A stretch of DNA of 64,000 bases, taken from the NCBI GenBank assembly GCA_026874595.1, contig CM049314.1, positions 76,336,300 to 76,400,299 of the forward strand, in the 5' to 3' direction. The notes under the pieces were generated by a model, which saw only the letters and a program-made list of their open reading frames with translations, had not been told where the DNA came from and did not search any database. Position numbers and translations under genes: made by a program. The stretch is from Sipunculus nudus (taxonomy: Eukaryota; Annelida; Sipuncula; Golfingiida; Sipunculidae). This document shows, one piece after another, positions 313 through 32,929 of this stretch. Within the stretch, counting starts at the first letter, position 1; the number at the start of each line of letters is the position of its first letter.

Positions 313-408
313 CATTGGACTGTAGCAGCGGCTCATTAACACAGACCCAGTGCAATTTGTGTAACACAGCAGGTCTTGGGGCTTACTATAACAGCGGCTC
401 TTGCAACA
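313..408 (+). CDS. P exon 1: four-Cys cassette
   Basis: Phase 1-1, 96 nt, spacing C-x9-C-x2-C-x13-C (LDC...QCNLC...GSCN). AG at 311-312, GTAAGT donor at 409. Partner M1. Confidence 0.85.
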
Positions 409-3400
409 GTAAGTAAACCTTTCAAATTTCTTTAGATTAGTCCCTCCGCCGGGAGGGTATGCGTTCATCCCCGTTCGTGTGTGTTTCTGTCCATAACACA
501 TGCAGTCATGAACGGAACCTCATGAAACTACCAGGGCATTTCGGGAATGGCATACTCTTTGGCATATAGCTATCCAAATTAACACACGTTTGTTGAAATT
601 TAATGTAAAACACGTTTTTTTGTTTCTTTATTCGATATTCATATCAAATAGAAGTTACATGTCATTTAAAAAAAGAATCATTAATTTCTAATATATTAAA
701 ATTTATGCAGAAGGATAAATGATAGATAAGGAATAAAGAAAAACACCTGGACATATTTATATGTATTTTAAATTCATGTAATTGTTAATGCATACTTACC
801 GCCAGGTGTGAGATGTATCGTGTGCTTCATAAAAATGAAAGATGTAAATATATTATTTCAGACGTGAACTGTGCTGACAATAATGCCCTGACCACTCAGG
901 CCGCCTGTGAATCGTGCCGTAATCGCTACTGGGGCCTGGACTGTGACACTACACGTAAAGTATATTTTATATGACTGGTAATTGTGTCAGGTACTAGTTA
1001 TACTTAGACCCTATTAAACTCTTCTTTTTATAGTTTTGTATGCGCACGAAATATTTATAGCAATTAATGGTATAATATTTATTAACTTAAATAAATCCAC
1101 AAATAATTTCAGAGGTATTCAGTCAAGAGGTAATTTTATAGGCTACGATAATTGCATCAGTATAACATGTTTTGTTACCATTCGTAGAATGAGCTATACT
1201 AGTTGATAATACCTCATCAACGAATATAAAGAAACACCTTTGACGATTCAGCAAAAGTACGAAATTAAATATTTATATATATATATATTTTTCTGTATTA
1301 TATAAATATATAACTGTTAATGTTCAGTAACTTTGATTTCATTCAGTTTGTAAGACCGGAAACACATTTTGAGTTGCTCTCACTATTCACGTACAGATCT
1401 CGATTTTGAGCAGCGGTTTAAGGAAAGGAGAATTTAGCACATAATTTATGTATAAGAAGTGAATTTTTTTAAAAAACAGTTCCCATAACTGCCTCTACGC
1501 TTGTCAAGTCTTGGGGAAGCGTTACTGGGGACGCTTTGTGACATTTTCCTGCGTTAGTCGGTATTTCCTACGATATCTTTTTCTTCAGCCGCTGATCTCT
1601 GTACCGGGTCGCTTAACACACCGGAAAAATGCACTCAGTGTCTCTCCCATATGTGGTCATCAGGATCATGCGTCGGTAAGTTTTTTATAGTTCTCGTCCA
1701 CGATTACGTAAACCTTTAGTATGATAATCTTTGTATTTTAAGGCAGTGATTATGAATCTTGTATGTCTCTAAATGAGCACACCAGGGGCCTCCCACACAT
1801 CACTTTATAAATAAGCTCTAATGTCTCAGATTGGTGTCTGTTTTTTAAACAGTAAAATCTTAGAAGAAGTGTAATTATGAGATATAATTTTCCATTATTT
1901 TATTTTTTTTTGTATTAATGGACTATCTTAAAACTCAATGGTTTTATTTTGAGTAAATCAATAATAAAAGGTAGAAATAAAAAACCTCTGAAACGTAGAG
2001 TCAAAGAAAGAACAATATGCATAATCGATTTTAAACAATTTCCCCTCAGCGAGTGTTTTCTTAGTAGTGGCTGCCCCAATAGTATTTATAACTACCAGAA
2101 AAGGTAACAGTATGAAGGATGCCACAACCTTAACATCAGGTGCCTCTAAGCTCATATTTATAATGTTTTTTTTTTTAAATTGTCCTTCAAGACTATCTCT
2201 TCCGATGCTCATCTGTTTGAATCATGATTGAATGCGCCTAAGCATTATTGTCATATAACAATGTTGAATTGATTAAACAGCTTTGGACTGTACCTTTTTT
2301 GTTAGCGGTTGACTGTACGGATCCAAGTTTGGACGAGGCTTCCTGTAAGCGCTGCCGTCCATGGAAGTTCTGGAGCGGAACCGCCTGCCAAGGTAAGTAG
2401 CTTCGGGATCAAGATACATCGCTTATTTCTAATTAACCCTGTCCCCGATAGGGAAGGGAAGCCCCTGTCCCCGATAGGGAAGGGAAGCCCCTGTCCCCGA
2501 TAGGGAAGGGAAGCCCCTGTCCCCGATAGGGATGGGAAGCCCCTACGTATCACAAACTCTACCGTCCTATGTTGTTTATGTATTTCTATGTACTTTCTTG
2601 CACTTGCGTATGTCATTCGTATAATTTCGTACATTTTCGTATGTCATTCGTATAATTTCGTACATTTTCGTATGTCATTCGTATAATTTCGTACATTTTT
2701 GTATTTTTTCTGGATGAAGAAGCAGGTACCGATTAGTTCCTTTAATTTAAAACAATGACACCATCTAGAGTGGGAATATGGAAATAATAGGAATTGCAGG
2801 TTTTGAAAATAAAAGAATAATTTCTGCTCTTAATGCTGCGTATTTTCTGCTTCAGCCAATGACGCCGACTGTGCCAACCCGACAGCCATCACGGACCAGA
2901 ACAAGTGTACCGCCTGTTACCATGCCTACTGGACCGGCACAGCCTGTGCAAGTTAATAATTATTTCATATTATATAACTTGTAAAGTATATTTTATGTAT
3001 TTTTTCGTTTATTCTATTAGTATCACTATATATAATATATTTTGTGCGTTATTAATATTTGTTTGTGGGTTGCATGGATCTTTAGAGTTTTGGTTTAGTA
3101 ATATATCTCAACCCAAATATCAAAGTAACCGTCCCTATTTTGCCTCTATAGTAAATATATAATCTTTTTCTTTTATAGCATTTATCCTGCTTTATTTTAC
3201 TTATCACCTTTCCACCATGCTTGGGTCACTTTTTCTAGTATTGACTGTTCAAAAAATGGTAAAACCATTCTGCTTATATTTCCTCCTCAGCGGTGGACTG
3301 CGATCTTGCTGACAGCCAAGCAAAATGTGAGGCGTGTGACGGGTTCAAGTGGTCAAGCAGCAGCTGTACCCGTGAGTAGCGTATTATAGCAAAATAAACC

Positions 3401-6400
3401 ATCACAGAACACCTACACGGAGCATCAACAATCACAGAACACCTACACGGAGCATCAACAATCACAGAACACCTACACGGAGCATCAACAATCACAGAAC
3501 ACCTACACGGAGCGTCAACAATCACAGAACACCTACACGGAGCGTCAACAATCACAGAACACCTACACGGAGCATCAACAATCACAGAACACCTACACGG
3601 AGCATCAACAATCACAGAACACCTACACGGAGCATCAACAATCACAGAACACCTACACGGAGCATCAACAAACACAGAACACCTACACGGAGCATCAACA
3701 ATCACAGAACACCTACACGGAGCATCAACAATCACAGAACACCTACACGGAGCATCAACAAACACAGAACACCTACACGGAGCATCAACAATCACAGAAC
3801 ACCAACACGGAGCATCAACAATCACAGAACACCTACACGGAGCATCAACAAACACAGAACACCTTCACGGAGCATCAACAAACACAGAACACCTACACGG
3901 AGCATCAACAATCACAGAACACCTACACGGAGCATCAACAATCACAGAACTCCTACACGGAGCATCAACAATCACAGAACACCTACACGGAGCATCAACA
4001 AACACAGAACACCTACACGGAGCATAAACAATCACAGGACACCTACACGGAGCATCAACAAACACAGGACACCTACACGGAGCATCAACAATCACAGAAC
4101 ACCTACACGGAGCATCAACAATCACAGAACACCTACACGGAGCATCAACAATCACAGAACACCTACACGGAGCATCAACAATCACAGAACACCTTCACGG
4201 AGCATCAACAAACACAGAACACCTACACGGAGCATCAACAATCACAGAACACCTACACGGAGCATCAACAATCACAGAACTCCTACACGGAGCATCAACC
4301 ATCACAGAACACCTACACGGAGCATCAACAAACACAGAACACCTACACGGAGCATCAACAATCACAGAACACCTACACGGAGCATCAACAAACACAGAAC
4401 ACCTACACGGAGCATCAACAATCACAGAACGCCTACACGGAGCATCAACAATCACAGAACACCTACACGGAGCATCAACAATCACAGAACACCTACACGG
4501 AGCATCAACAAACACAGAACACCTACACGGAGCATCAACAATCACTGAACACCTACACGGAGCATCAGCAATCACAGAACATCTACACGGAGCATCAAAC
4601 TACAGACGCTACCTACCTTCCACAGTCTTATTCAGTATGGATGTCACTAGATGTAACAAGTCATTCTGAAAACCCCAAACTTAATTGAACCGTTCTTTAA
4701 TCTGTAGGTCCATTTTGTACAAAACTATCAGACAAGAATAGGTACAGGAGAGGTTAATATTCGAGTATAAAATAAGTATATGCAAATAATCGGGGGGGGG
4801 GGCGTATCATGCATGACTCGTACATACCAAGATTACAAACTTAGCCAAGCGACCATGTGGTCTTATTTAAGCATTCGTTTTCTTGCACAACATGAGTCTC
4901 AATTTGTTCCACTAAAGTATGACCATTGAAATTTTGCACAACCATAGCAAATTATTTTATAAATGTAATAAACTCAGAATCTGAATAAGCACTCTTTATT
5001 TTACAACATATTAGTTTAAATGATGAAGCTCGAGGTATCTCGTTCCGTGCAAACCGATTTATATTAAAAAGCTGATTATTGATTTTAGAGCCAAATAAAT
5101 TCTGAATAAAGTGTCACCAACAAGTCGAGGTTATCGACACATGAAAGACGCCGTGTCATCTAACCACAATAACTAGAAGCTTGTAAAATGTAAATGTAGG
5201 GTTTTCTCATGAAGTTTTATAGTAAATGTTAGGCTTTTACTCCCCTTTACTACATTGTCAAACTTTATCTAAATATTCATCTTTCAAAAATTAATCGCCA
5301 ATCTTTCATGGACACGTATCGGTAAAATATACTCTATTTATGTAAAACGACGCAACAGCGCAGCCAACTGAATACAATTCTGAGGACCGTTATCGAATAA
5401 GCATCTAGTATTTTTGCTTCTGATACTATTAAAGAATCGTTTCTATTGTGAACGGAAAGTATATCTTATTTCAGCGGTGGCATGCTTGGGCCAACAACTC
5501 TCCAGCCAGGATACCTGTGAATATTGTAGACACCATATATGGCACGGAACCTCCTGTTCAGGTAAGTGACGTCATCAAGAATGTTAAGTCAGCAGATATG
5601 TGACATCCTCAGGTAAGTTACGTCTCGCCTTGTATGAAAAAAGTGCTTGTGATTGAATGAATCTCCCGATTCCATCCCTTCGAAGTCACAAAGACAACAG
5701 GATAATAAGAATAATTTCTAATAGAGATGGTCAACTTGATATTTTAATTACAGATTATCCTGATTATCCTGCCCACCTGTTTTTTCATACGCCGGGCATA
5801 TGACGGTAGTATAATGGTATAGAGACCGTCCGTCCTTCCGTCCGTTAACTGTTAGTGTCGTTGGATAACTTACCGCGGCTTCGATGGATTTTCAGCACAC
5901 TCTCCATAACTACTTACCAATGTATTATCTCTCCCGAGTTCGATTATGGCCAAAATCCACATATATTAAATTAGGTCTATGGGTCACTGATCCACTCTGT
6001 TGTGTCGCCACGATAACTTTTGAAGAATATGATATGAAGGATTTTGATAAAACTTACCAGAAATGTAAATCAGTAAAATATCTCGCATAAGTTCGATTTC
6101 TAGCAAAATCCATGCATATTTAATGAGGTCGGAGGTCACTACACTTTGGATGCACAGTGGTGACTTAACAAAAATCCTATGGATTTTCATGAAACTCATT
6201 TTACATATTTATCAATGCAGTTCCTCATTATCAATTAAACTCTCAGCAGATTTCACGCATATTTAATGAGGTCAGAGGTCACAAGATACACGACGGGCGA
6301 ATTATGCACGTTTGCGATGTTCCTTTTAGTTTCTTTTATGGTAAGACATAATTTTTGGCACCAAAGGCAAAAAAAAAAAAAAAGTAAAGAAAATGCTTGA

Positions 6401-9177
6401 TTAATCATTGTGAAGTATTAACTTACTTAATGCGATTTTCCAATTCTTTAGCGACATCGTTCGGCGATCCAAAGGGAAAAGAAACAACAGAAAGCAGTAA
6501 CAACGTCATAATAGGTCGCGTGCAAAAGAAATACAGAAACAATGATCAAATGCTACCGACCCTCTTTTTTATAACGATGTTTTTTTCAACAATGCACGAG
6601 CTCTCACTGTTACGTCATTCACGAGTTGTTGATACGAAACAATGGCTACTCACTAGGGATATCTTAATATAAATATTCAAATATAAATATAGAATATAAA
6701 ATACATGCATATTACAGATTAACCATTTTAATAATTTTAACATTTGTTTGTATTAAATTCAAAGTTCACAATATCAGTTTGCGTTTAGTCATATGAATAG
6801 TAACAGCTACATCATGTCAATTATTTCAGAGTATTGGAATGCAAAATGAACGCAAACATAGAAACATGTTCATCGTCTGTACGTTTTTCTTTATGTCATA
6901 TTTGATAATTTATTAATTTTAGCTGCGGAATGTAGCAGCACTGGTCTCACACAAGCCCCGTGTAGTTCTTGCAAAGACATCAAGGTTTGGACAGGCAGCA
7001 CGTGCGCGGACTGTGAGTAAATCTGTAAAGACACTTGTTTTAAAGTTTTTGTTTCAGTTGAAGGCATTTTATAAAACGACATAAAGGTAAATTTAAATAC
7101 TAAATGTCTCACCCGGCCCATTTTAATCTTCAGTTTAATCACATAATACCTTTTGAATTCCTCCAATATGATTTTCATTCCTTGTGATTCTAAATTTCTC
7201 TGCCAGGTGTCTGGCGGAGGTTGGGATATCTATACTCTTCTTTGAAACTATGGCAACGGACACACAACTTACACCGGAACACAAGCTCTCATTGTACTTA
7301 CTCTTGGCCCTATGCCAGAAACAATGAAATCAAACCAACGAGAGCAGGTGTCGCATGTTTAAAATTTTTGCTGGATGCACAATGGTCTGATTACAATTCT
7401 TTGCTCTGTGCGCACCATAGTGTTCCTGCCCGGGTAACCCTTCCATAGAAAGCAGCGGTTACACAAAACGATGTCAGGTACCTCTGCGTCAGGAGCGTAG
7501 TTGAGGTCTTGAACTAAATATATATACAAGATATATAAATATACACACACATACATACATGTGTGTGTAGCTGTCTGTTACTTTATTCATGATAATTTTT
7601 ATTTTTTTTGTTTTAGTAACGACTGGACAGTGCTCCACGAGCGGCACGGCCACAACTTGCCCGGCGTGTCTCGGTAAAGTGTATGACGGGTCTTCGGCGT
7701 GCATAGGTAATGACCGGGCTTCAATTTTCATTTAAAACCAGATGGTATTTTCTTTTTTAGAAAAACAATCCGAGACGACCATAGGTTGATTACACCTATA
7801 ACTATCAATTAAAATTTAAATTGGTGTACGTAAGAATATATATATGTATTGCTGATCATTCTGTCCATGTTTAATAACGATTATTAAAAAAAGAAATAGA
7901 ATTCATGCATTTACGAGACATATATCATTAATATAGTTATATATGAAAATGTTTGTGAAATAACATATATATTAAACTATACTTATTTTACAAACTATCT
8001 TATACTCAGTTATGTATGTATATTGTTTTATATTTTTATATTATATTATATTTTATTATCACAAGTATTACCAACTTGACACATAATATTGGACATGACC
8101 ATACTTAGTATATTCAGCATGTTATACAATATATTATATTTTATTCATTATATGAGTGTATGTTATATTGTATTATCGCAGCTATTACCACAACGACAAC
8201 CCAGGCAACATGTGAAAATAACTATGGATATGTTAGTTTATCCATGACCTGCCGAAGTGAGTAACAAATCAAATGATATATTTTACTTAATCAATATTGT
8301 TACAAAAGCATAGAAGTTATGGTAAGAAGGTGACAACTTATATGGTTAAAGTGTGTATAGGAATTAAAATATTAAATCAGTTAGGTCATTGTTCCAGTTC
8401 TGATTAACTGTGAATCTATAATTAACAGCCCGCAGTTATAGAAACAGATATACATGTAGATAGATACACATGCTTAGTCACGTGGACATTTTGAACACCA
8501 TAAAATATTGTAGGGCCTATCGGGGAAACAAGCCCTATCGGTAGCACACAGGTCCAGCGTTCCACCACTTCGTCAATAAAACAAGCTTCAATGGCGAGAG
8601 AGATATTTCGGCCTTGATATGTTCTAAACTACACCCCTTTGAAATCGTTCTGACAACGGAACGAAGTGAATCAATTGATCATCCCAGGAGTCGCACTTGG
8701 GTAAACTAAGTGGCTGTATGTATTACGAAAATCACCCTTCTTCGGACCTCAAAGGCGGCATCCCGAACGAGCCCCCTTTTTTGCCAAGTAGACATCTTTC
8801 ACAGGTTAGAGTATAGTTTTACCGATCCGGGATGGGAACGCATGTCGGTGGTACACAAGTACAGCTTTTCAACATCTTCAGCTTCAATGGCGAAATATTC
8901 AGGTCCCCCTTTATATGCACCCCATAATAATATAACCATACACGCGTATCCTCAGACACACAATTCTATTCGGCCTCTCAGCAGAGGAAGGTCCGGAGTT
9001 TGTATTATGTATTTATGTGTGCTTTAGTAACCAGTTCTGTCTTCCCACACCAGGTGTCCTTACCGATAACATATGCAGTGGCGCCATCTCCAGCCAGGCG
9101 GCTTGTGGATGGTGTCCTGGCAGGTACTGGAATTCTGGGATCTGTACCAGTAAGTATTTTGGTAAATAGTGATATTA

Positions 9178-9214
<37 letters not shown>

Positions 9215-10252: not shown

Positions 10253-10330
<78 letters not shown>

Positions 10331-13300: not shown

Positions 13301-14138
13301 ATCGCCGGGTTGGAAATAATTTGTGTACCATGACCCGCTAACTACCCGAAACGACTACATTGGCCGGTCCCTCAGATGGTCGTGTTAGAGAGATTTTACT
13401 TTGTTTATACAATACATTTACAGTTAATTGTGAGCTGACGAGCATTATCAATCTTAGATTAAAAGTAACGATTTTTCATCAAAGGCTACTCTTAATATGG
13501 TAAACTGCAAATCATTTTGTCGGTGCACACTGTAAAGTCCACACATTTACTGATGATGTATACTTTATGAGCTAACACTGGAAGTCCACACAGATCAGTC
13601 ATTGTAATATTAATTGTTGGTATACTAAAATTACTCATAAAAAGGAAACGCCGTTGATATAACTTTTTTTTGTTAATAATTAATATCTTAATATTTTTTA
13701 ACATAATATGTATATTGTACATAATATTTACATATTATTGTGCTTCTAGGGCGGAAAATCCTTAATATGCAGTTAAATTACAATATATGCTCTATTTTCT
13801 AAATATTAAATTATATATATTAATATTGAACTATATTCTAAATATTGAATTATTTGTATTAAATATTGAATTATGTATATTAAATAAATATATATATATA
13901 TTTGTATATATATTTATTCATGGGTTTAAATAAAAAGCGAAACTTGTGCAAAATATTTCTTTATTCATGGTCAAATGATACATGTAAGTACATATAAATC
14001 AAACCTACAACGCAATCACTGTGTTTCCATCCCAAAAAATCAAACTTCACTTTTTGAAGAGGGTACTCAGCGTGGTTAATTGGTCTTTTTTGTGCAGGTG
14101 ATCCTATTAGTGGAGTGATCAGGGGTTTTAAGGCAGGG

Positions 14139-24900: not shown

Positions 24901-27836
24901 AGGAAGCATTTGGTGGATTGTTATAAAACATTTATATACCTCTCCAATTTAAATTTATAAATGATTATCAACTTTTGCTAATATTCTAGTTTCGCAATGC
25001 AATGCTTACAGATACTGGCCTAATGTTTGGTCTGTGGGCGCATAATGACCACTTACAGATCGAGTTCGCGTTTCGTCCCAGTTAACCTATTTTTCACCAT
25101 ATGACAGATCCTGAACATAGAAAATTTCATGAAAGACAGAAATTTTCATGAAAAATGCACATATATGAACTTTTTTTCACAATGCCTGCAGATACTGGCC
25201 TGATTTTTGGTGTGTTGCTTGATAATGACCCTTTACAGATCGAGTTTGCATTTTGCCTTTGTTGACCTACTTTTGACCATACAACACTTCCTGAACTTAA
25301 AAATTTTTACAAAATTTAACAAATGTTTCTAATTTGCCCCAGGCGGGGGCATTCGTGTCGTTCCGACACATCTAGTTTTCATTTTACATGGTAAAAACAA
25401 ATTAATCATAATCCATATGTTCAAATAATAATGAGAATGACATAATCCCTGCATGAATTATATATTGTTTCCTTTAAAGTGAAAGTGTTAAAGCTAGGCT
25501 TTATTTTTAATTTATTGCATTTAAGGTATGTCCCATTTATCATGGACCTTTCTTTGTGTATTTCCTAAAATGTTTTACTTTGTTCTGTATTTTTCTTTGG
25601 TAGCCTGCAGCAGTGTGACTGCTAATTGTGCCGCCTGTTCGAGTGCGAGTGTCTGCACCGCCTGCAGTGGAAACAACATGATCAATGACGTCGGAACCAC
25701 ATGCCTTCGTAAGTTATTCCGTGGTTTAACAGTCCTATCCCTGACCTCTAGCAATTGGTATATAATGTGTTTGAAACTTACCCATCAATAAAAGGAGAAT
25801 AGCATGGCGTGATGTTTCTCTTATAAAATAACATTCAAATGGCCTTTAACGTGCTCTTTTATTGCATTAAAACTAAATATGCACGTATATGCGTGTAAAA
25901 TGAGTATACACTAATGTTCTTGTATATTTCTGAACAATCAGAATTGCGTATATGCGTGTAAAATGAGTATATATTAATGTTCTTGTATATTCCTGAACAA
26001 TCAGAATTGCGTATATGTCTGTACAATGAGTATATACTAATGTTCTTGTATATTCATGAACAATCAGAATTGCGTACATGTCTATAAAATAAGTATTTAC
26101 TAATGTTCTTGTATATTCCTGAACAATCAGAATTGCGTATATGTCTGTAAGATGAGTATATACTAATGTTCTTGAATATTCCTGAACAATCAGAATTGCG
26201 TATATGTCTGTAAAATGAGAGAATACTAATGTTCTTGTATATTCCTGAACAATCAGAATTGCGTATATGTCTGTACAATGAGTATATACTAATGTTCTTG
26301 TATATTCCTGAACAATCAGAATTGCGTATATGTCTGTACAATGAGTATATACTAATGTTCTTGTATATTCCTGAACAATCAGAATTGCGTATACGTCTGT
26401 AAAATGAGTATATACAAATGTTCTTGTATATTCCTGAACAATCAGAATTGCGTGTATGCGTGTAAAATTTGTATATACTAATGTTCTTGTATATTCCTGA
26501 ACAATCTGAATTGCGTATATGCGTGTAAAATGAGTATATACTAATGTTCTTGTATATTCCTGAACAATCAGAATTGCGTATATGCGTGTGAAATTTGTAT
26601 ATACTGTTCTTGTATATTCCTGAACAATCTGAATTGCGTATATGCGTGTAAAATGAGTATATACTAATGTTCTTGTATATTCCTGAACAATCAGAATTGC
26701 GTATATGCGTGTAAAATTTGTATATACTAATGTTCTTGTATATTCCTGAACAATCTGAATTGCGTATATGCGTGTAAAATGAGTATATACTAATGTTCTT
26801 GTATATTCCTGAACAATCAAAATTGCGTATATGCGTGTAAAATTTGTATATACTAATGTTCTTGTATATTCCTGAACAATCTGAATTGCGTATATGCGTG
26901 TAAAATGAGTATATACTAATGTTCTTGTATATTCCTGAACAATCAGAATTGCGTATATGCGTGTAAAATATGTATATACTAATGTTCTTGTATATTCCTG
27001 AACAATCTGAATTGCGTATATGCGTGTAAAATGAGTATATACTAATGTTCTTGTATATTCCTGAACAATCAGAATTGCGTATATGCGTGTAAAATTTGTA
27101 TATACTAATGTTCTTGTATATTCCTGAACAATCTGAATTGCGTATATGCGTGTAAAATGAGTATATACTAATGTTCTTGTATTTTCCAGAACAATCAGAA
27201 TTGCGTATATGCGTGTAAAATGAGTACATACTAATGTTCTTGTATATTCTTGAACAATCAGAATCAGTGGTACGGTGATAAGCTTAATTTAGTAGTCCTC
27301 TCTGAAAAGGACGTTGGACAAAAAAGGCGCTGTCATATGCTTGAAAAGGTTATTGTCCACACACAAAAGGTGTACCTGTGGCGCTATTCTCTCTCCCTGT
27401 CACACACATTCCATAGTGTGTTTCTTCAGGTTCCATATACACCTTCATCTGGCCTTGAAAATACTTGGCATGAGTTTTACGCCTGATTTCCCTTTAAATC
27501 TTACTTATGAATTATACATTTTAATGTTGTATTTTTTTTATTCATTATAGTCGTGCAGCTTTTTTTTTCATTATATTGTAGTATAAATACTTACAAATTC
27601 TTTTCAATTTGCAGCTCTCAACATTCAAGGTTGTCTGTCATACTACGATCGTCCAAACTATTGTATCAATTGTGGCCAATTCTATACCCAAGACAAGAAT
27701 GGTACCACGTGCGAAAGTAAGAAACCATATGCCATCACTTGTGATGTTTGGTTAACTTTTTCTAGAATAAGTTTATTAATCTTGGTCGATGTTTTAGTAG
27801 ATCTAATGGTTGTCAGGCAGGACTGTGATGAGTTTA

Positions 27837-27873
<37 letters not shown>

Positions 27874-30800
27874 TATATATATATAAATAAACGTTTTTGT
27901 ATTTATATTAGTGATTTATTATAAAAACGTCTAATTTTTAGAGAGTTTATCAATGCACTTTCAGTGCTCAAATGTTTTCTGATGTGAAGAATGGTCAGTG
28001 TGGACATGGATAAGGACAGATTTTATATACAGATATAATCATGTGTTTAAATCATATCATCTTATACATTTCTATTGTACTCTACATATATTCGATATTT
28101 GCTCGTAAGGGTGTAAAGAACAGGGTAAATAAGAACATTTGATAAGTTTATCATTTTTCGCCAGAGGCTTGTTACCATTGCATCGGAATTGACTGTCAGG
28201 CCCCTGACAACACCACGGCATTGGTTCCATGCAATGGACTCGGAACCACACATAGTTGCATGGTAGGAATTTATAGATGCAAAAAATAACAAAAGTAAAA
28301 CACTGTCTGTATATGCCAGGCTGCCAAGCGATCTTACTCTTTCTATTGATTTGGTGTCGGTCCTGTTTTAATCCCTTTCTTTAATTTACTCCTTTTTCTC
28401 TCTATCTGCTTTCAGCCGTAATATGCAAAATGTCGTGTATTCCTACGAAATTGTCTTTGTGAATGAATGATTGAATGAATGAATATTTTATTCAGAAATA
28501 TGAGGCCTCGGGCCCATAGTTCCATATGTGCATATATCACATGTAGAAAAACAAAATAGACAATGTTTTCAAACTTGAAAAACAACATCACAAAGATAAA
28601 AGAAATGAAATAATAAACAAATGATAATATATGATATATGCATTCCAAAATATTAACAAAAAAAAAATCATCATGTAGAGGTCATTTCACCCATATATAT
28701 ATAAATATACATAAATTTACGGTTCTCATAAGATTAATAAATATACAAGTTAATAATTACAAATATATGCTTGTGTATACACATATTCTCAATACATATA
28801 CATGCATAACTACATATTAAGCCATATTTAATCATAAAATATATTTTATAAATACAAATATATCTATATTAATACAATTTTAAATGAAACTTTAAATATT
28901 GAACTCTCTTAATGTGGACAATTTACTTAAATTTTAATATGCATATATAATAATATCTAAAAGTTTTACTACTCAGCTACCCAAGGACTTGTTTTGAGCA
29001 CAGCTTCCAATACATAGTATTGTACCTCAATTGTTTTTATCCATATATATATATAATACACATACATACATATATATACACACATATTTTTTATTTTTTT
29101 TATTTTTACTTGATCAAAGTTGACATAGTTTTATTCATATATTAATATTTATAACCAGAGTAAACAAGTGACCATTCAACTATTTCATATGGATAATCTG
29201 TTTAATTTAGTTATTAACTAATGAATTATTTCTCTTTTTGACGGCATAGTGTACAAATGCTGCTAAACTATAAATAACATCAGTATTTTTACTTGACATA
29301 AGAGATATAATATCTCTTAGTTCATTGTATAAAGGACATTTTATTATGAAATGATATTCATTTTCACCTATCGATTCTCCAAGTTTCAAACAATAATTAC
29401 AGATTCTTTGTGTCCAGTGTATACTTTCATGTCTTCCTTTCTCAATTTGTAAATTATGTGAAGAGCAAGTTAACCTAGCTAAAATAATCTTGTGACTATT
29501 ATTTCTAACAACATTCAAATATATTTCGACAGAAAGAAGTGATTTAAATACAGAGTATGTTTCCAAACGCCTGTTATTTGAAATGTTACTTATCCATTCT
29601 TGTAAACATATGTATTTGAGTCTCTGCTGCAACTGAAAGAGAAACAATTTTGTATCTCCTACATCTTGATGTATCCAAACATAACCAAATCCAAGTGAAA
29701 ACAGTATATTTTTAATTTTTGTTGCCCATGTTTTTCTCCCTAATTCATCAAGATGATGTAATCTAACATATAACTGTTTTAGGTATCTATGCTGTGTCAT
29801 TCTTAATAATTTTGTCCAATATGTAATACATTTCAATAAATAAATTTCTTCAGAATGCAGTGTAAAATATAATTCATTCATAAAAAATGTAAATAATAAA
29901 GGACTAATCATACAACTCTGTCTTGTTCTACAGTACATGTAAAATAATCAGTTAAACCATTACTAGTTAACACACAAGACTTCAATTTGGAATACATAGA
30001 TTTTAATATGTTATAAATTTTACCTCTAATGCCTATTTTATGAAGAACATGAAATAATAATGTCTTTGTATAAAAATGTATAAAATGAACTTGGAAATTT
30101 CAAGCACCATGTGATATCAAATCTACAAGTATAACTGAGCACCATATTTTGTTTAAATGTTTACTCCTATTGTCCTATTCGTCACCCAAGAATCAGCATG
30201 AAATTATAATGTTGTTACGTATTGTTAGGTCCTTATCTTGTTCTTCCTTTTTCCGTCTGTTTCCTACTTTTGTCCTACTCTTTCAATACTTACAGTCGGC
30301 CTGTTATCTTTCTTTACGCAATGTGTTCTTGGCAGCCTGTTGTTAGAGCACGCATAACATTACAAGTAGATACATAGCTGTGTATTATATATTTAACGAG
30401 TGTATATGTTAAATAGACATTTGTTGATTATAAGGATAACATGTATCGCAGAAACGGAAAATGGAAAGCGACACACATTGATAACACATTTTGTTGTTGT
30501 CATAGTTACGAATATCATTGAAACCTGAACTTATGGTGATTATAGTCCGTTTCATCCCCTCATGTCCACCTGTTTTTTGCTATGAAAATTTTTATTATTT
30601 ACATTTCAAGGGAAACAATTATAGTGTAGAGCAGAGGATTAAAGAACCTAATTTTCAACAAGGTAACTAAATACCTAACTTACGCCTTATTTGAGAAACA
30701 GAATTTTCTGAAAATATGAGAAATCAGTCTACATTTTACAACATATCAGACCCATTTATGGCGGTCAAGGTCACTGGTCACATGCAAAATCAACCTCAAC

Positions 30801-32290
30801 TGAAACTGCTGATTGGATGATCTCATGTAAACACTCTAAAAAATATAACCAGCTAAAACAAAGATGGCTGCTTATGGAGGGACACATAATATCTGCCAGA
30901 TCATGATAAAGAGACTAAAATGTTGTGAAACATAAACGGGGGATTTAAAGTAAAATTCTTAATTGCCATATTAGGTTGTCACTTCCATATACTGTTTTCT
31001 TGGAAATTATTGAAAAATATAAACTTATAAGCAAATCATCTACAAAAAACAGGTGGACAGCAGGTGGTGAAATGGACTATAATGCCCACTCTTTTAGTAA
31101 AAAGACCTAAAGCTTTATATTAGCGACGCCTGTCGGCCACAGTTTACACTAAATGTACCGGGCCTTTATTTCAGGAAAATCTCTGATGATTCATTATAAC
31201 AAAGAGTTATCTTTTGAGTTTGACTTAATTTGACAAAACTCGTGATTCTAGGCAATCTGTCACCAACCCAGCATGCGCATATAAATGGAAAAATTCGATA
31301 AATAAAATAGGACTAGTCTGAACAATAACATACAATTTGCAGGTATTCTCATTGTTTAACTTAAAAAACCAGAAAATTACTTCTTCGGCATTAAGTAGTA
31401 TGTTATACAGATGATATGCAAGTTAAACAATTATAAGAATATACATAGATGAAAAAGGGTTTTCATATTTCATTTAGGGTCTGAAAACCACGGACAGTGG
31501 CGTTACGTACTACACGTACAGCTGTTACAACATCACAGAAAAACCCTGTGGAATCTGCGAGACAGCGGGAACCACTACCGTACGTACAAATGTTCTCTTA
31601 TAGATTTAATGCACCGTCCTCCTTTTTCAACCTTTCTTTTTTAATACAAAGGTGGTGTTTCGGGGGCTACCTTGTGTTGTCTGGCGCGTTCCTGTTAGGA
31701 CTGCCGATATATTGATACATTGGCAAAATCAAGAGGTCAGATAGATAAGTAAGACAGATAATTTTAAAATTTATTTGTTAATGACATTTTTTGTGTAAAC
31801 TTCTGTATCCAAAATTCACATGGTAATGCTGGTTTATGCCCTTTCTCGGTCCAATGGCAAATGAATTTAGTATATGCCCATTTTGGTTCATAGAGAAATA
31901 ACCTTTATCTATATCCTTTCTTGATCCAGTGCGTAGTGACACTGGTCATTCCTTGACAATTTCTTCAATCAAAATGTTACTCTTAAACTTACTTTATACG
32001 GTGTCAGTAGTTTTAGAGAAAATATGCACCTGTTTGAAATCAACATTTATAGCAAGTTTTAGTTCAGTTCAACTGTTTGCTGAATACTTCAGACCGTTTT
32101 ACAGAAGCAGGGTTGGAATTTCGTAAAGGTTATTGAAATTGATAAATGTCAACACCAGGGCGGGGTTACGTATGGATTCCCGGCCATGGTGCTGCAAATG
32201 TTCTTAATTCGAATGGTGCCTTTATGAAATTCCATACAGGGTACATTGAAATAAATAACATTTTCACTGAACTGATAACATAAGGTTTAT

Positions 32291-32329
<39 letters not shown>

Positions 32330-32929
32330 TTTATATATTATGATATATCTGATATTTGGAAAGCAACCCCTATATCTATGGTTATTGCATTGATTTGCTC
32401 TTAGACCATTTAATAGAAATAATAAACAAAAAAGGGGGTTCAGGTTCTTCATGTATTGGGAATGGGCATGGAATTATTTATGATATATGAAATGTCTAGG
32501 TCCTAAAAATACATATACATATTTGCCAATTATGCACGATAATGGTATGTTGTCATTGAGCCGTCCAAGATAATCCCAATAGTCGTATATGATAAACAAA
32601 CTCTGTTGATTAGATTTGCCAAATATCAGAACATAACTTTGAAGGATCAATACCAGATCAATACTAGACCCAAAATGCAGCACCTTGTTAGTAACTGACG
32701 GGTAATGTTTTAAAAATTAATCCGTTTTTGTGAATACAAATTGAAAATCATGTACGAAATGTAAAGCACATTAATCTGTATGCATTTGTTGTTGTAGGAA
32801 TGTCGCCAGTGCTGCAACACTGCCATGTGTAACAGCCTCCCCTACGGAAGTGAGGCATCGTCGATCATCGTTGGTGGCGCCCCCATATTTATACTGGTTG
32901 CATTACAATGCTTGCTGACTTTAAGTTAA
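313..32929 (+). CDS. Gene P: multi-exon Cys-rich (furin-like) cassette protein with C-terminal Ly6/uPAR domain and GPI signal, 5' partial
   Basis: Thirty-five exons (P1-P35, listed separately) join into one open frame of 1,127 codons plus stop; the 5' part lies left of the window. Each exon P1-P32 starts and ends in phase 1 and encodes one cassette of 24-38 residues: four-Cys units in the N-terminal half, six-Cys furin-like units (C-x3-C-x2-C-x5-9-C-x2-C-x10-14-C) mostly in the C-terminal half. Exons 33-35 form an LU domain with 12 Cys ending CCNTAMCN, then a short Ser-rich spacer and a hydrophobic C-terminus ending LVALQCLLTLS, as in GPI-anchor signals. Known of the families: FU repeats occur in furin/PCSK5 and growth-factor receptors, LU domains in CD59, Ly6 and uPAR. 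Inference: a large GPI-linked surface protein, perhaps adhesive or a receptor. The convergent paralogue M confirms the exon model. Many automated pipelines would call this PCSK5-like, but no protease domain is seen. Confidence 0.85.
862..954 (+). CDS. P exon 2: four-Cys cassette
   Basis: Phase 1-1, 93 nt, C-x11-C-x2-C-x8-C with the Trp-containing motif CRNRYWGLDC. Donor GTAAAG. Partner M2 has the same length and keeps NRYWG. Confidence 0.85.
1589..1675 (+). CDS. P exon 3: four-Cys cassette
   Basis: Phase 1-1, 87 nt, C-x9-C-x2-C-x9-C, ending HMWSSGSCV. M3 keeps WSSGSCV. Acceptor TTCTTCAG, donor GTAAGT. Confidence 0.85.
2306..2392 (+). CDS. P exon 4: four-Cys cassette
   Basis: Phase 1-1, 87 nt, C-x9-C-x2-C-x10-C (VDCTDPSLDEASCKRC...WSGTACQ). 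M4 is VDCTAQSLDQASCNRC. Two minus/plus-strand open frames over this exon are shadows. Confidence 0.85.
2437..2544. repeat. 26-bp tandem repeat, 4 copies
   Basis: GC-rich unit containing CTGTCCCCGATAGGGAAGGG, repeated with exact 26-bp period from positions 2441, 2467, 2493 and 2519, starting about 45 bp inside intron 4 of gene P. The CCC...GGG arms could form hairpins. Confidence 0.9.
2607..2699. repeat. 31-bp tandem repeat, 3 copies
   Basis: Unit beginning CGTATGTCATTCGTATAATT with period 31 from 2607, 2638 and 2669, almost perfect. Lies about 60 bp after the 26-bp array in the same intron. Confidence 0.9.
2856..2951 (+). CDS. P exon 5: four-Cys cassette
   Basis: Phase 1-1, 96 nt, C-x11-C-x2-C-x9-C (NDADCANP...ITDQNKCTAC). 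M5 shares ITDQNKCTAC. The donor is the weak GTTAAT; the phase and the paralogue support it. Confidence 0.8.
3291..3371 (+). CDS. P exon 6: four-Cys cassette
   Basis: Phase 1-1, 81 nt, C-x8-C-x2-C-x9-C (VDCDLADSQAKCEAC). Donor GTGAGT. Partner M6 is 15 nt longer, with an insertion before the last Cys. Confidence 0.85.
3401..4600. repeat. 30-bp minisatellite, about 40 copies
   Basis: Tandem unit of the form ATCACAGAACACCTACACGG + AGCATCAACA, exact 30-bp period through the whole block in intron 6 of gene P. Variants are single substitutions (A/T at one position, TCC for ACC, GCGTC for GCATC) with no length change. Because 30 is a multiple of 3, the minus strand stays open as a repeating VDAPCRCSVI peptide; this is taken as chance, not a gene. 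The homologous intron of gene M lacks the array. Confidence 0.95.
4601..5474 (+). other. Remainder of intron 6 of gene P
   Basis: AT-rich unique-looking sequence with a G10 run near 4793-4802. No coding or repeat signal recognised. Confidence 0.5.
5475..5561 (+). CDS. P exon 7: four-Cys cassette
   Basis: Phase 1-1, 87 nt, C-x10-C-x2-C-x9-C (LSSQDTCEYCRHHIWHG). M7 keeps QDNCEYCMHHYW. Acceptor ATTTCAG, donor GTAAGT. Confidence 0.85.
5785..6330. repeat. Dispersed repeat with CCGTCCGT signature (approximate bounds)
   Basis: Contains ACCGTCCGTCCTTCCGTCCG followed by two diverged copies of a segment with 'GATTTT/ATTTC..GC..AT..TTAATGAGGTC.GAGGTCAC' near 6120-6150 and 6245-6285. The style matches interspersed repeats of mollusc genomes (inference). 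Small open frames within it are not supported. Confidence 0.5.
6923..7012 (+). CDS. P exon 8: four-Cys cassette
   Basis: Phase 1-1, 90 nt, C-x9-C-x2-C-x10-C (AECSSTGLTQAPCSSC). Donor GTGAGT. M8 is two codons longer. Confidence 0.82.
7617..7706 (+). CDS. P exon 9: four-Cys cassette
   Basis: Phase 1-1, 90 nt, C-x8-C-x2-C-x10-C (GQCSTSGTATTCPACLGKVY). M9 has the same length and GKVYDGSS. Donor GTAATG. Confidence 0.85.
8182..8256 (+). CDS. P exon 10: Thr-rich short cassette with two Cys
   Basis: Phase 1-1, only 75 nt: ITTTTTQATCENNYGY... with just two Cys (C-x12-C). The CxxC pair of the other cassettes is missing. M10 is likewise short (72 nt, TSTTTQANCDNNYGY). It may act as an O-glycosylated hinge (inference). 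Confidence 0.78.
8515..8960. repeat. Two diverged copies of a repeat in intron 10
   Basis: Segments near 8535-8600 and 8848-8905 share 'GGTRGYACACARGTMCAGC...GCTTCAATGGCGA'. They look like two decayed copies of one interspersed element. An open frame over this stretch has no other support. Confidence 0.4.
9054..9149 (+). CDS. P exon 11: four-Cys cassette
   Basis: Phase 1-1, 96 nt, C-x9-C-x2-C-x9-C (CGWCPGRYWNSGICT). Acceptor CACACCAG. M11 is three codons longer before the second Cys but keeps VVTDNLCSG and YWNSGTC. Confidence 0.85.
9181..9209. repeat. (TA)n microsatellite
   Basis: Pure TA dinucleotide run just after the P11 donor. Confidence 0.95.
9906..9986 (+). CDS. P exon 12: four-Cys cassette
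   Basis: Phase 1-1, 81 nt, C-x8-C-x2-C-x9-C (AECNACSGKYWDGDGCE). M12 is AECNACTGKYWDGDSCQ. Donor GTTAGT. Confidence 0.85.
10261..10327. repeat. (CT)n followed by (AT)n compound microsatellite
   Basis: About 19 CT units run directly into about 14 AT units in intron 12. Confidence 0.95.
11049..11165 (+). CDS. P exon 13: long four-Cys cassette
   Basis: Phase 1-1, 117 nt, irregular spacing C-x9-C-x3-C-x16-C (DECESGCSKSDNSAREW). M13 keeps DECESGCSKSDGSAREF and the same length. The loop is longer than in neighbours. Confidence 0.85.
11166..12775 (+). other. Intron 13 of gene P (1.6 kb)
   Basis: Holds an open stretch at 11378-11818 without recognisable domain, splice or codon support, and several ATACGATACGA-like words near 11480-11860. 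The homologous M intron is much shorter (51,251-side 1.1 kb). I see no gene here. Confidence 0.45.
12776..12889 (+). CDS. P exon 14: first six-Cys furin-like cassette
   Basis: Phase 1-1, 114 nt, C-x3-C-x2-C-x13-C-x2-C-x10-C (CAQHCLTC...ECLTCEDGYVLDSGACV), a classic FU pattern with an expanded third loop. M14 matches in length. Donor GTAAGT. Confidence 0.87.
12890..14217 (+). other. Intron 14 of gene P (1.3 kb)
   Basis: Very AT-rich, with imperfect AATATTGAATTAT repeats at about 13795-13880 and an (AT)n run at about 14144-14177. A roughly 45-bp word around 14075-14120 (TGCAGGTGATCCTATTAGTGG) recurs near 16775-16800, so both are parts of one dispersed repeat family. Confidence 0.5.
14218..14295 (+). 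CDS. P exon 15: four-Cys cassette
   Basis: Phase 1-1, 78 nt, C-x10-C-x2-C-x8-C (KCNTCKRPWSSGTCG). M15 is KCNGCKRPWSSGTCG. A short-type unit embedded among six-Cys units. Confidence 0.87.
14296..16014 (+). other. Intron 15 of gene P (1.7 kb)
   Basis: Contains a CT/CCCCA-rich patch at about 15170-15210 and a long (AT)n run at 15881-15936. Otherwise no recognised element or gene. Confidence 0.5.
15881..15936. repeat. (AT)n microsatellite, about 28 units
   Basis: Longest uninterrupted AT run in the window, about 80 bp before P exon 16. Confidence 0.95.
16015..16116 (+). CDS. P exon 16: six-Cys furin-like cassette
   Basis: Phase 1-1, 102 nt, C-x3-C-x2-C-x7-C-x2-C-x12-C (CPADCVDCSTAGASGCDQC). 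M16 is nearly identical at its start (CPTDCVDCSTAGASGCDTC). Confidence 0.87.
16117..17418 (+). other. Intron 16 of gene P (1.3 kb)
   Basis: Around 17140-17250 it shares words with 7360-7450 (GGATGCACAATG..., CTGATYACAATTYTTTGCTCTGT), so both introns carry a piece of the same dispersed repeat. No gene seen. Confidence 0.45.
17419..17496 (+). CDS. P exon 17: four-Cys cassette
   Basis: Phase 1-1, 78 nt, C-x7-C-x2-C-x11-C (CEGCGANYFLSSDSSCN). M17 is CTNCGANYFLASDSSCN. Donor GTAATT. Confidence 0.87.
17985..18118. repeat. Imperfect 'ACATGATATGACCT' repeat
   Basis: About seven to eight degenerate copies of a 14-20-bp word (CATGATNNNACCT) in intron 17 just upstream of P18. Decayed minisatellite. 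Confidence 0.75.
18149..18247 (+). CDS. P exon 18: six-Cys furin-like cassette
   Basis: Phase 1-1, 99 nt, C-x3-C-x2-C-x8-C-x2-C-x10-C (CPSGCSTCSHSSGTTTCTAC). M18 has CPTGCSACSHSSGTTTCTAC and the same length. Start of the block of highest similarity between the two genes. Confidence 0.88.
18586..18693 (+). CDS. P exon 19: long four-Cys cassette
   Basis: Phase 1-1, 108 nt, C-x12-C-x2-C-x16-C (CPGSLGSMNTQTVCDQCGGT). M19 is almost the same protein. The FU second and third Cys are missing. Confidence 0.88.
18963..19058 (+). CDS. P exon 20: six-Cys furin-like cassette
   Basis: Phase 1-1, 96 nt, C-x3-C-x2-C-x5-C-x2-C-x12-C (CIANCASCTSATTCTTC). M20 is near-identical, and the flanking introns also align closely with M. 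The open frames spanning 18861-19130 and 46489-46794 read a wrong frame. Confidence 0.9.
19559..19654 (+). CDS. P exon 21: six-Cys furin-like cassette
   Basis: Phase 1-1, 96 nt, C-x3-C-x2-C-x5-C-x2-C-x12-C (CPANCQACSSTTSCSQC). M21 differs at about three residues. Confidence 0.9.
20271..20384 (+). CDS. P exon 22: six-Cys cassette with CVC variant
   Basis: Phase 1-1, 114 nt, C-x6-C-x2-C-x7-C-x1-C-x14-C; the usual CxxC is shortened to CVC. M22 differs by a single visible residue (Q to K near the end). Confidence 0.9.
20801..20896 (+). CDS. P exon 23: furin-like cassette with seven Cys
   Basis: Phase 1-1, 96 nt: CVSGCAVCTDATTCQQC then STHC before the last Cys, giving seven Cys. The extra Cys is also present in M23, so it is not an assembly error. 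Confidence 0.9.
21047..21139 (+). CDS. P exon 24: furin-like cassette with five Cys
   Basis: Phase 1-1, 93 nt, SASCHTC...VTCSSCKADYTLEVCV. The first FU Cys is replaced by Ser/Ala, leaving five; same in M24. Only 150 bp of intron separates it from exon 23. Confidence 0.9.
21400..21495 (+). CDS. P exon 25: six-Cys furin-like cassette
   Basis: Phase 1-1, 96 nt, C-x4-C-x2-C-x6-C-x2-C-x10-C (CETCKAGYYVSDGACT), the most textbook FU repeat here. M25 keeps CKAGYYVSNGACT. Confidence 0.9.
21683..21784 (+). CDS. P exon 26: six-Cys furin-like cassette
   Basis: Phase 1-1, 102 nt, C-x5-C-x2-C-x5-C-x2-C-x12-C (CLACTDGTSCSNCGAGKYFD). M26 nearly identical; the intron before it also aligns between the copies. 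Confidence 0.9.
22097..22195 (+). CDS. P exon 27: six-Cys furin-like cassette
   Basis: Phase 1-1, 99 nt, C-x3-C-x2-C-x5-C-x2-C-x13-C (CGAGCSACSRGTACDTC). M27 has CGSGCSACTSGTACDTC. Confidence 0.9.
22623..22715 (+). CDS. P exon 28: six-Cys furin-like cassette
   Basis: Phase 1-1, 93 nt, C-x3-C-x2-C-x5-C-x2-C-x11-C (CPSQCAQCTSDTQCSLC). M28 has CPSNCAQCTSDTQCSQC. Donor GTATGT in both. Confidence 0.9.
23171..23272 (+). CDS. P exon 29: six-Cys furin-like cassette
   Basis: Phase 1-1, 102 nt, C-x3-C-x2-C-x5-C-x2-C-x14-C (CLSGCTVCLNSTICSDC), with NST as a possible N-glycosylation site. Donor GTAAGT, whereas M29 has GCAAGT. Confidence 0.9.
23597..23701 (+). CDS. P exon 30: six-Cys furin-like cassette
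   Basis: Phase 1-1, 105 nt, C-x3-C-x2-C-x9-C-x2-C-x11-C (CPAGCSACSAAADGTVTC). M30 has one extra codon in the last loop. Confidence 0.9.
23857..25378. repeat. Large dispersed repeat element in intron 30 (approximate bounds)
   Basis: Begins near TGCCCTCGGCACAAAGTGGC and ends near TTCCGACACATCTAG. Inside, a roughly 150-190-bp module (ACAGATCGAGTTYGCGTTTCG ... TTGACC..CTTTTGACC) recurs four times at about 23990, 24175, 25025 and 25205, split by a different segment with CTGTCCGTCCGTCC. Such elements are common in bivalve genomes (inference). Absent from the paired M intron. No protein-coding capacity seen. Confidence 0.65.
25604..25708 (+). CDS. P exon 31: six-Cys furin-like cassette
   Basis: Phase 1-1, 105 nt, C-x6-C-x2-C-x5-C-x2-C-x12-C (CAACSSASVCTACSGNNMIN). 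M31 has the same length and GNNMINDIGTTC. Donor GTAAGT. Confidence 0.9.
25880..27265. repeat. 63-bp minisatellite, about 22 copies, partly in a 126-bp dimeric pattern
   Basis: Unit includes GCGTATATGCGTGTAAAATG, AGTATATACTAATGTTCTTG and TATATTCCTGAACAATCAGA, with exact 63-bp period in intron 31 of gene P. From about 26445 to 27180 two variants alternate (ATGAGTATATA with CAATCAGAAT, TTTGTATATA with CAATCTGAAT). One copy near 26600 lacks 3 bp. Minus-strand open frames of up to 391 codons follow from the 63-bp period and lack other coding signs. Confidence 0.95.
27615..27716 (+). CDS. P exon 32: four-Cys cassette preceding the LU domain
   Basis: Phase 1-1, 102 nt, C-x9-C-x2-C-x12-C (LNIQGCLSYYDRPNYCINC). 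M32 is LNIQGCLSYYDRPNHCVNC, one of the best kept cassettes. NGT near the end is a possible N-glycosylation site. Confidence 0.9.
27837..27886. repeat. (AT)n microsatellite
   Basis: AT run with one AAAT interruption in intron 32. Confidence 0.95.
28165..28262 (+). CDS. P exon 33: LU domain part 1
   Basis: Starts in phase 1, ends in phase 0 (98 nt). Encodes ACYHCIGIDCQAPDNTTALV... up to SCM: the N-terminal finger of a Ly6/uPAR domain with C-x2-C-x4-C. M33 has CYHCTGNDCQAPDNTTAL and the same length. Confidence 0.88.
28455..30090 (-). mobile_element. Decayed non-LTR retrotransposon (LINE) fragment in intron 33
   Basis: On the minus strand, 30070-29945 encodes a reverse-transcriptase-like stretch (RGKIYNILKSMYSKLKSC). 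After a frameshift, 29938-29207 stays open for 243 codons with TRQSCMISPLLFTFFMNEL, fitting the VRQG..SPLLF.IFINDL motif, and a C-terminal ICNYC...ENEYHFIIKCPLYNELR zinc-knuckle-like region typical of LINE ORF2 ends. The catalytic FADD-type motif is missing, so an internal deletion is likely. The 3' end at about 28460-28490 carries ATTCATTC repeats. Inactive and antisense to gene P. Confidence 0.75.
29207..29938 (-). pseudogene. Reverse transcriptase C-terminal remnant
   Basis: Open stretch of 243 codons inside the LINE fragment. It keeps the SPLLF RT motif at residues 13-17 and a CxxC...H...C cluster at about residues 180-205, but lacks the N-terminal endonuclease and the DD catalytic pair. 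Its upstream RT part continues in another frame, so it is broken. Confidence 0.7.
30091..31477 (+). other. Remainder of intron 33 of gene P
   Basis: AT-rich, no gene or repeat confidently recognised. A short open frame at 30149-30346 lacks support. Confidence 0.4.
31478..31579 (+). CDS. P exon 34: LU domain part 2
   Basis: Phase 0-0, 102 nt: GLKTTDSG...YTYSCYNITEKPCGICE. NIT is a possible N-glycosylation site. The extra CGIC pair gives the domain 12 Cys rather than the usual 8-10. M34 has CYNTTEKPCGMCE and the same length. Confidence 0.88.
32296..32326. repeat. (AT)n microsatellite
   Basis: Pure AT run in intron 34. Confidence 0.95.
32798..32929 (+). CDS. P exon 35: LU domain end, GPI signal and stop
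   Basis: Phase 0 start, 132 nt with TAA. ECRQCCNTAMCNSLPYG closes the three-finger fold (CCxxxxCN), followed by SEASS as a likely omega-site region and IIVGGAPIFILVALQCLLTL as the hydrophobic GPI-transamidase tail. No charged residue follows, so a stable transmembrane anchor is less likely. Confidence 0.88.
   Translation, partial: ECRQCCNTAMCNSLPYGSEASSIIVGGAPIFILVALQCLLTLS

Follow-up and report, generated by a model that had tools for sequence, protein, structure and literature searches.

The window, i.e., the whole 64,000-nucleotide stretch analyzed here (C9:76336300-76400299, from a 1.43-Gb genome of 153 contigs), contains two genes arranged convergently, tail to tail, both of which extend past its ends. 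With the flanks fetched, and in window coordinates, the plus-strand gene spans positions -11780 to 32929, and the minus-strand gene runs from 69622 down to 38598. For each copy a 45-exon model is predicted, which opens with a signal-peptide exon, continues with 41 cassette exons, and closes with three exons for a C-terminal domain of Ly6/uPAR-like (LU) type. The predicted proteins are 1,437 (plus) and 1,449 (minus) amino acids long with a stop codon at the end alone, the coding lengths being 4,314 and 4,350 bases, and they contain 221 and 222 Cys, respectively; the cassettes measure about 25–40 residues, and their array about 1,309 residues with 208 Cys. The exons that fall in the window are collected in Table 1. 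Plus cassettes 1–10 and their signal-peptide exon lie left of the window, while minus cassettes 1–6 and the corresponding signal-peptide exon lie to its right, up to 69622.

An earlier, sequence-only reading of this DNA had placed a feature with "32+" stacked Cys-rich cassettes at 313..32929. Both borders are those of exons: the stop codon in LU exon C finishes at 32929, and a cassette exon begins at 313, but this exon is cassette 11 and not the start of the gene. Similarly, the cassettes do number in the dozens, 41 in the whole gene, but the present model counts 31 of them (ranks 11–41) in the window. That two intact copies are neighbors is borne out by their open frames, with the second copy located on the minus strand.

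Cassettes were located by scanning for Cys-rich open stretches between splice sites and with profiles of the two cassette types; the remaining ones were recovered by aligning the two copies, and 30 kb of flank was added per side. All 41 cassettes in both copies can be read as phase 1-1 exons bounded by AG and GT, with lengths that, as modeled, are all multiples of three, and the sole exception at the inner borders is a GC donor at minus cassette 38. This pattern is partly by construction, because the search was restricted to phase 1-1 and AG/GT and only such exons were sought; the restriction could not guarantee that borders of this kind would be available for every one of the 41 cassettes in both copies and would keep the frame open. 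Some splice sites score poorly, and for cassettes 1, 33, and 38, in one copy or in both, as well as for plus cassettes 28, 36, and 37, the other copy served as the guide for placing borders by hand. The signal-peptide exon was chosen by eye, on phase and inter-copy likeness, the tblastx comparison being dominated by simple repeats.

Table 1. Exons of the two convergent genes within the window (type A cassettes usually have 6 Cys, type B 4 Cys)
Feature	Type or content	Position	Strand	Basis
plus cassette 11	B	313..408	+	predicted exon
plus cassette 12	B	862..954	+	predicted exon
plus cassette 13	B	1589..1675	+	predicted exon
plus cassette 14	B	2306..2392	+	predicted exon
plus cassette 15	B	2856..2951	+	predicted exon
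plus cassette 16	B	3291..3371	+	predicted exon
plus cassette 17	B	5475..5561	+	predicted exon
plus cassette 18	B	6923..7012	+	predicted exon
plus cassette 19	B	7617..7706	+	predicted exon
plus cassette 20	B	9054..9149	+	predicted exon
plus cassette 21	B	9906..9986	+	predicted exon
plus cassette 22	B	11049..11165	+	predicted exon
plus cassette 23	A	12776..12889	+	predicted exon
plus cassette 24	B	14218..14295	+	predicted exon
plus cassette 25	A	16015..16116	+	predicted exon
plus cassette 26	B	17419..17496	+	predicted exon
plus cassette 27	A	18149..18247	+	predicted exon
plus cassette 28	B	18586..18693	+	donor hand-set from other copy
plus cassette 29	A	18963..19058	+	predicted exon
plus cassette 30	A	19559..19654	+	predicted exon
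plus cassette 31	A	20271..20384	+	predicted exon
plus cassette 32	A, 7 Cys	20801..20896	+	predicted exon
plus cassette 33	A, 5 Cys	21047..21139	+	hand-set
plus cassette 34	A	21400..21495	+	predicted exon
plus cassette 35	A	21683..21784	+	predicted exon
plus cassette 36	A	22097..22195	+	acceptor hand-set
plus cassette 37	A	22623..22715	+	acceptor hand-set
plus cassette 38	A	23171..23272	+	acceptor hand-set
plus cassette 39	A	23597..23701	+	predicted exon
plus cassette 40	A	25604..25708	+	predicted exon
plus cassette 41	B	27615..27716	+	exon model + blastn between copies
plus LU exon A	phase 1-0, first five LU Cys	28165..28262	+	predicted exon
plus LU exon B	phase 0-0	31478..31579	+	predicted exon
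plus LU exon C	CCxxxxCN, GPI-type hydrophobic tail, stop	32798..32929	+	predicted exon
minus cassette 7	B	63925..64000 (cut by window end; full exon to 64008)	-	predicted exon
minus cassette 8	A	63289..63378	-	predicted exon
minus cassette 9	B	62835..62921	-	predicted exon
minus cassette 10	B	62243..62326	-	predicted exon
minus cassette 11	B	61843..61941	-	predicted exon
minus cassette 12	B	60731..60823	-	predicted exon
minus cassette 13	B	60082..60168	-	predicted exon
minus cassette 14	B	58112..58198	-	predicted exon
minus cassette 15	B	57497..57595	-	predicted exon
minus cassette 16	B	57115..57210	-	predicted exon
minus cassette 17	B	54609..54695	-	predicted exon
minus cassette 18	B	54231..54326	-	predicted exon
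minus cassette 19	B	53577..53666	-	predicted exon
minus cassette 20	B	52588..52692	-	predicted exon
minus cassette 21	B	51852..51932	-	predicted exon
minus cassette 22	B	51290..51406	-	predicted exon
minus cassette 23	A	50086..50199	-	predicted exon
minus cassette 24	B	48951..49028	-	predicted exon
minus cassette 25	A	48344..48445	-	predicted exon
minus cassette 26	B	47953..48030	-	predicted exon
minus cassette 27	A	47450..47548	-	predicted exon
minus cassette 28	B	46959..47066	-	predicted exon
minus cassette 29	A	46597..46692	-	predicted exon
minus cassette 30	A	45910..46005	-	predicted exon
minus cassette 31	A	45271..45384	-	predicted exon
minus cassette 32	A	44795..44890	-	predicted exon
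minus cassette 33	A	44554..44646	-	hand-set
minus cassette 34	A	44237..44332	-	predicted exon
minus cassette 35	A	43870..43971	-	predicted exon
minus cassette 36	A	43398..43496	-	predicted exon
minus cassette 37	A	42836..42928	-	predicted exon
minus cassette 38	A, only GC donor	42315..42416	-	donor hand-set
minus cassette 39	A	41387..41494	-	predicted exon
minus cassette 40	A	40925..41029	-	predicted exon
minus cassette 41	B	40411..40512	-	exon model + blastn between copies
minus LU exon A	phase 1-0	39907..40004	-	predicted exon
minus LU exon B	phase 0-0	39427..39528	-	predicted exon
minus LU exon C	CCxxxxCN, GPI-type tail, stop	38598..38723	-	predicted exon

Profile matches of the cassettes and of the C-terminal domain

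Type A cassettes have the spacing C-x3-C-x2-C-x5-C-x2-C-x12-C, which we take to resemble that of FU repeats. Their closest profile is that of the variant-specific surface proteins (VSP) of Giardia, PF03302; against its cut-off of 31.4, a stretch of the minus copy scores 29.4 bits and the whole plus protein 18.1 bits; another type A stretch matches laminin EGF at E = 0.02 and the furin-like PF15913 at E = 0.65 (10.7 bits, cut-off 28). Among solved structures, the type A query finds ELAPOR1 (E = 0.0087) and MST1 (E = 0.0095, over query residues 40–461). Run over the genome exon by exon, PF03302 did not find the C9 cassettes; the last part of this profile matched below cut-off at C5:78791602 and C17:48534152, and the cassette models gave no convincing cassettes within the surrounding 3 kb of these two places.

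The type B stretches submitted on their own (plus cassettes 11–21, and minus cassettes 12–20 in a query with one extra residue) matched no Pfam family at E ≤ 10, the other 4-Cys cassettes having entered this search only as part of the whole plus protein, and a PDB sequence search with 4-Cys cassettes gave one match, at chance level. A PSI identity for these cassettes is rejected on the missing Pfam match of the two stretches, and a clean furin-like label for the array does not hold either, with PF15913 ranking behind Giardia VSP and laminin EGF.

Regarding the C-terminal domain, ten Cys in the LU order, plus two extra Cys, are found in both C9 copies. The LU Cys pattern, which was written after seeing the sequence, is matched by 26 and 24 of 200,000 composition shuffles, and on the whole protein it begins inside the cassettes, so that its first part is not specific. 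The CC-x4-CN end occurs once per protein in both C9 copies and also in a paralog on contig C3, described below, while the Leu of the motif Leu-x-Cys-x-x-Cys is absent, its place before the first Cys being taken by Lys in both C9 copies and by Glu in the C3 copy as joined. The LU part of the C9 copies matched no Pfam family at E ≤ 10, and its PDB sequence search gave three matches, all at chance level. When the LU part of the C3 copy is read with the longer of its possible B exons, the best Pfam match is DUF7631 over a short stretch (17 bits, E = 0.0086, below cut-off), followed by Quiver, PF17064 (15.6 bits, E = 0.034, cut-off 27.3), aligned over profile positions 2–86 of 86; with the shorter exon B, DUF7631 scores 13 bits, PF16975 appears at E = 8.6, and the Quiver match is lost.

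In the tail encoded by LU exon C, small residues precede a hydrophobic stretch that runs to the terminus. Overall, the C-terminal domain is LU-like and probably LU, an identity drawn mainly from its Cys pattern. The single LU domain with a GPI signal announced by the sequence-only reading is hence retained in a weaker form: its Cys order, CxxC start, and CC-x4-CN end are present, but no Pfam LU family rises above cut-off, and the signal is a GPI-type hydrophobic tail as judged by a simplified rule of our own. A separate short gene piece at C4:75588052 also has the LU Cys pattern and a GPI-type tail; it is matched by the LU query at E = 1.16, shows weak Pfam matches to UPAR_LY6, CD59, and toxin-like families, and aligns with the LU profile built here at E = 5e-4 and a probability of 31% (hhalign).

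Divergence and cassette order in the two C9 copies

Across 1,435 aligned codons, the plus and minus proteins are 76.9% identical; dN is 0.156, dS 1.025, and dN/dS 0.152, and the LU part alone gives a dN/dS of 0.154 (83 codons). Nearly all Cys columns of this alignment, 220 of 223, are common to both copies, and three occur in one copy only. The divergence is uneven along the array: identity between the copies is 69.0% for cassettes 1–22 and 87.4% for cassettes 23–41, and dS is 0.498 in the latter and saturated in the former, for which dN/dS is consequently meaningless. Introns as well as exons are alike at 18522–22868 versus 47129–42692, intron likeness being scarce elsewhere. The lower dS and this intron likeness suggest that the 3′ halves probably exchanged sequence more recently, i.e., by gene conversion, and such an exchange may account for the lower divergence of cassettes 23–41.

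At the nucleotide level, blastn between the copies yields 39 blocks, of which 31 are collinear and cover 34 of the 41 cassettes and all three LU exons; the collinear blocks are mostly exon-sized, three of them also spanning introns, and the eight that are out of order resemble simple repeats. Both copies have the identical string of cassette types, with 22 A and 19 B. All plus cassettes but one, 40 of 41, find their best match in the other copy at their own rank, cassette 18 being the exception, whereas the nearest other cassette inside the plus copy is only 24–59% identical. In a tree of all 82 cassettes, 36 of the 41 same-rank pairs are sisters, and adjacent cassettes are seldom each other's nearest relatives. 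Because the same-rank matches across copies exceed the likeness within a copy, the array predates the C9 duplication, and the sequences thus describe a cassette array that is old and frozen in its order. In repeat proteins that devote an exon to each unit, the number of units usually changes by gain and loss; 41 units unchanged in number, order, and type between copies, together with ten ranks whose order persists in the much more diverged C3 paralog described below, offer a test case for the freezing of repeat arrays.

Two introns of the plus gene contain tandem arrays of their own. The first, at 3397–4598 after cassette 16, consists of about 40 copies of a 30-nt unit (96% matches) and leaves long, gene-like open frames, among them a minus-strand frame rich in Cys, that are in fact repeats and stay open because 30 is a multiple of three. 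The second, at 25884–27264 between cassettes 40 and 41, consists of 22 copies of a 63-nt unit with minus-strand open frames of 471 and 409 residues.

The C3 paralog and the junction of cassettes and LU exons

Among the matches listed, the cassettes have few relatives in this genome. A query made of cassettes 25–40 matched at least 34 places, and among the matches listed 32 belong to the C9 locus, one to C3 (46% over 67 residues, E = 2.8e-12), and one, weak, to C11 (E = 7e-4); with cassettes 1–22 there were at least 39 places, all in the C9 locus among the matches listed. On C11, a Cys-rich stretch at 38055147–38055722 is 32% identical to cassettes 25–40 over 190 residues and has two internal stops, and it could be another cassette protein or a relic.

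The C3 paralog has 14 cassette units on the plus strand of the 110 kb read, and a phase 1-1 exon, the only phase tried, can be placed on 12 of 13 cassette cores. The single best rank of each unit shows no order with position (Kendall tau -0.05). A chain test with centered scores, adopted after this plain test, gave a best ordered chain through ranks 4, 5, then 30–39 and 41, which skips one unit between ranks 30 and 31; its score is 352, against a permutation mean of 249.9 (sd 22.3) with none of 5,000 permutations equaling it, and five of the 14 units, those of ranks 33 and 34 included, have their single best rank where the chain puts them. The counterparts of these two cassettes share one exon at C3:12770340-12770528, so that the intron between them would have been either lost in C3 or gained in the C9 line.

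After the last C3 cassette, on the same strand, come LU-A, LU-B, and LU-C exons that can be read in the C9 phases: exon A in phase 1-0 with nearly the C9 Cys spacing, exon B in phase 0-0 with three possible donors and hence an uncertain end, and exon C with the CC-x4-CN motif and a hydrophobic terminus. For cassette 41, the C3 sequence gave no counterpart. Patterns for the three LU exons occur once each on the C3 plus strand and once on each strand of the window, and have no match in the C3 minus strand, in four C9 flank pieces, or in 20 shuffles of the C3 sequence; having been fitted to known exons, they show by these counts rarity and not discovery. The joined layout of cassettes and LU exons is thus probably older than the two C9 genes, and we infer that the LU end, along with ten cassettes or more, was already present when the C3 paralog split off.

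It might be objected that the cassettes are a degraded or non-coding repeat array misread as exons by chance, and meaningless long open frames do occur here, in the intronic 30-nt and 63-nt repeats. A chance array would hardly be free of internal stops over 1,437 and 1,449 codons with AG/GT at all inner borders but one, nor would it be under purifying selection as strong as that measured, with no excess of disabling changes seen in either copy, and we regard its probability as negligible. More serious is the reading of each copy as two adjacent genes, one for a secreted Cys-rich cassette protein and the other for a small Ly6-type GPI protein, which would have been duplicated as a pair. The collinearity of the C9 copies cannot separate the two readings, because an inverted duplication carries neighbors along, and about 55 nt upstream of LU exon A the last plus intron does contain a frame that resembles a signal peptide and has a phase-1 donor. 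This frame is missing from the minus copy and is taken as chance because the last intron is not conserved. That intron is merely 448 nt (plus) and 406 nt (minus) long, and it has no start codon or signal peptide for LU exon A common to both C9 copies; moreover, in the model of both copies, the junction between cassette 41 and LU exon A is phase 1 on either side, i.e., in frame. The far more diverged paralog on another contig also keeps the same neighbors in the same order, on the same strand, and in readable phases, as the sequence-only reading would have it when it assigned the LU exons to the cassette gene. Two separate genes are therefore highly unlikely, and the single joined gene, with its predicted junctions, is a model in which we place high confidence.

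A putative tethered rod and its relation to known proteins

On the single-gene model, the signal-peptide exon, the 41 cassettes, and the LU-like end would yield one secreted, GPI-tethered surface protein per gene, and a protein of this kind built as a disulfide rod is, taken as a whole, the explanation we find most probable. How the rod would work is argued by analogy and is a proposal that we favor only slightly: each cassette would form a small disulfide knot, and the knots would be stacked end to end in a single long rod, about 50 nm in length if scaled by residues from the Cys-rich domain of MST1, and the 208 Cys of the cassettes could make the cross-linking tighter than in MST1. The LU domain would be the foot at the membrane, the first, amino-terminal cassettes the tip held off the cell, and the whole might act as a spacer, a coat, or an adhesion filament. 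As for its history, phase-1 cassette exons may have multiplied inside a phase-1 intron between the signal-peptide and LU exons of a Ly6-type gene, which they perhaps entered by exon shuffling. Tentatively, and at somewhat less than even odds, we picture an old animal family in which a Ly6-type gene multiplied a cassette, up to 41 order-frozen units in C9, as an unnamed class of GPI-tethered disulfide rods where the place of each cassette matters in the long term.

Two other functions deserve consideration. The sequence-only reading suggested a role in recognition or immunity, with the cassettes as diversified binding surfaces. The probable surface anchoring, the repeats, the several relatives, and the lower likeness of cassettes 1–22 than of 23–41 between copies agree with this suggestion. 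Diversifying families, however, usually show many copies and repeat turnover, and here dN/dS is 0.15, the number, order, and type of the cassettes are the same in both C9 copies, and among the matches listed the cassette queries reach no further than the C9 locus, a single place on C3, and a weak one on C11. A low dN/dS between two copies is still compatible with recognition. We found no evidence for such a role and consider it unlikely; the fixed order, the purifying selection, and the few copies fit a structural role better. The cassettes might also be skipped in frame, giving rods of varied length or content by splicing, as every cassette exon is, in the model, divisible by three in both copies. 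Phase 1-1 symmetry is, however, also left by exon shuffling and is partly imposed by the model, and adjacent cassettes are rarely nearest relatives, unlike mutually exclusive duplicates, so that a splice-variable protein appears improbable. The tethered structural rod remains our preferred reading.

Among the matches listed in the open-access literature, there is no description of a cassette array joined to an LU domain. This layout, in which a long rod rich in Cys would stand on a GPI foot of Ly6-like type, would be an addition to those of animal surface proteins, and its relatives may hide under other names or none, because its parts fall below or at Pfam cut-offs.

Several known systems resemble one or another part of it. 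Like the Giardia VSP, the C9 proteins are predicted to be secreted, are Cys-rich, and are dense in CxxC, with 90 such motifs each, i.e., 20.9 and 20.7 per kb, compared with a mean of 12.6 per kb stated for the VSP in an excerpt of PMC2996952. Here there is mostly one exon per repeat, an LU domain, and few copies instead of hundreds; membership of the VSP fails on the CRGKA tail, absent from the C9 proteins, and on the PF03302 cut-off. With the furin-like repeats of PF15913, type A cassettes share a similar Cys spacing, and their match to the profile is far below cut-off.

The model for the rod is MST1 of the mastigoneme (PDB 8tx1), with a Cys-rich chain of growth-factor-receptor type, whose residues 1,176–1,853 form one 26-nm domain with 26 disulfides according to passages of PMC11015965. 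MST1 is algal and has Ig-like domains and a polyproline helix, and in those passages no LU part is described. The match to it is weak, and ELAPOR1 matches as well; it is a likeness of working that we propose, not kinship.

Closest to the foot of the rod is the Ly6/uPAR family, for which the text available from PMC4839075 gives as hallmarks a signal-peptide exon first, a CxxC start, a CC-x4-CN end, and a GPI-type tail in the last exon, with one to four LU domains in the human and mouse members. The C9 genes share the first three of these hallmarks, and by the simplified rule their last exon would also encode a GPI-type tail. They differ from the family, as that text presents it, in the two extra Cys, in having no Leu before the first Cys, in an LU domain spread over three exons instead of two, and in the 41 cassettes that stand between the signal peptide and the LU domain.
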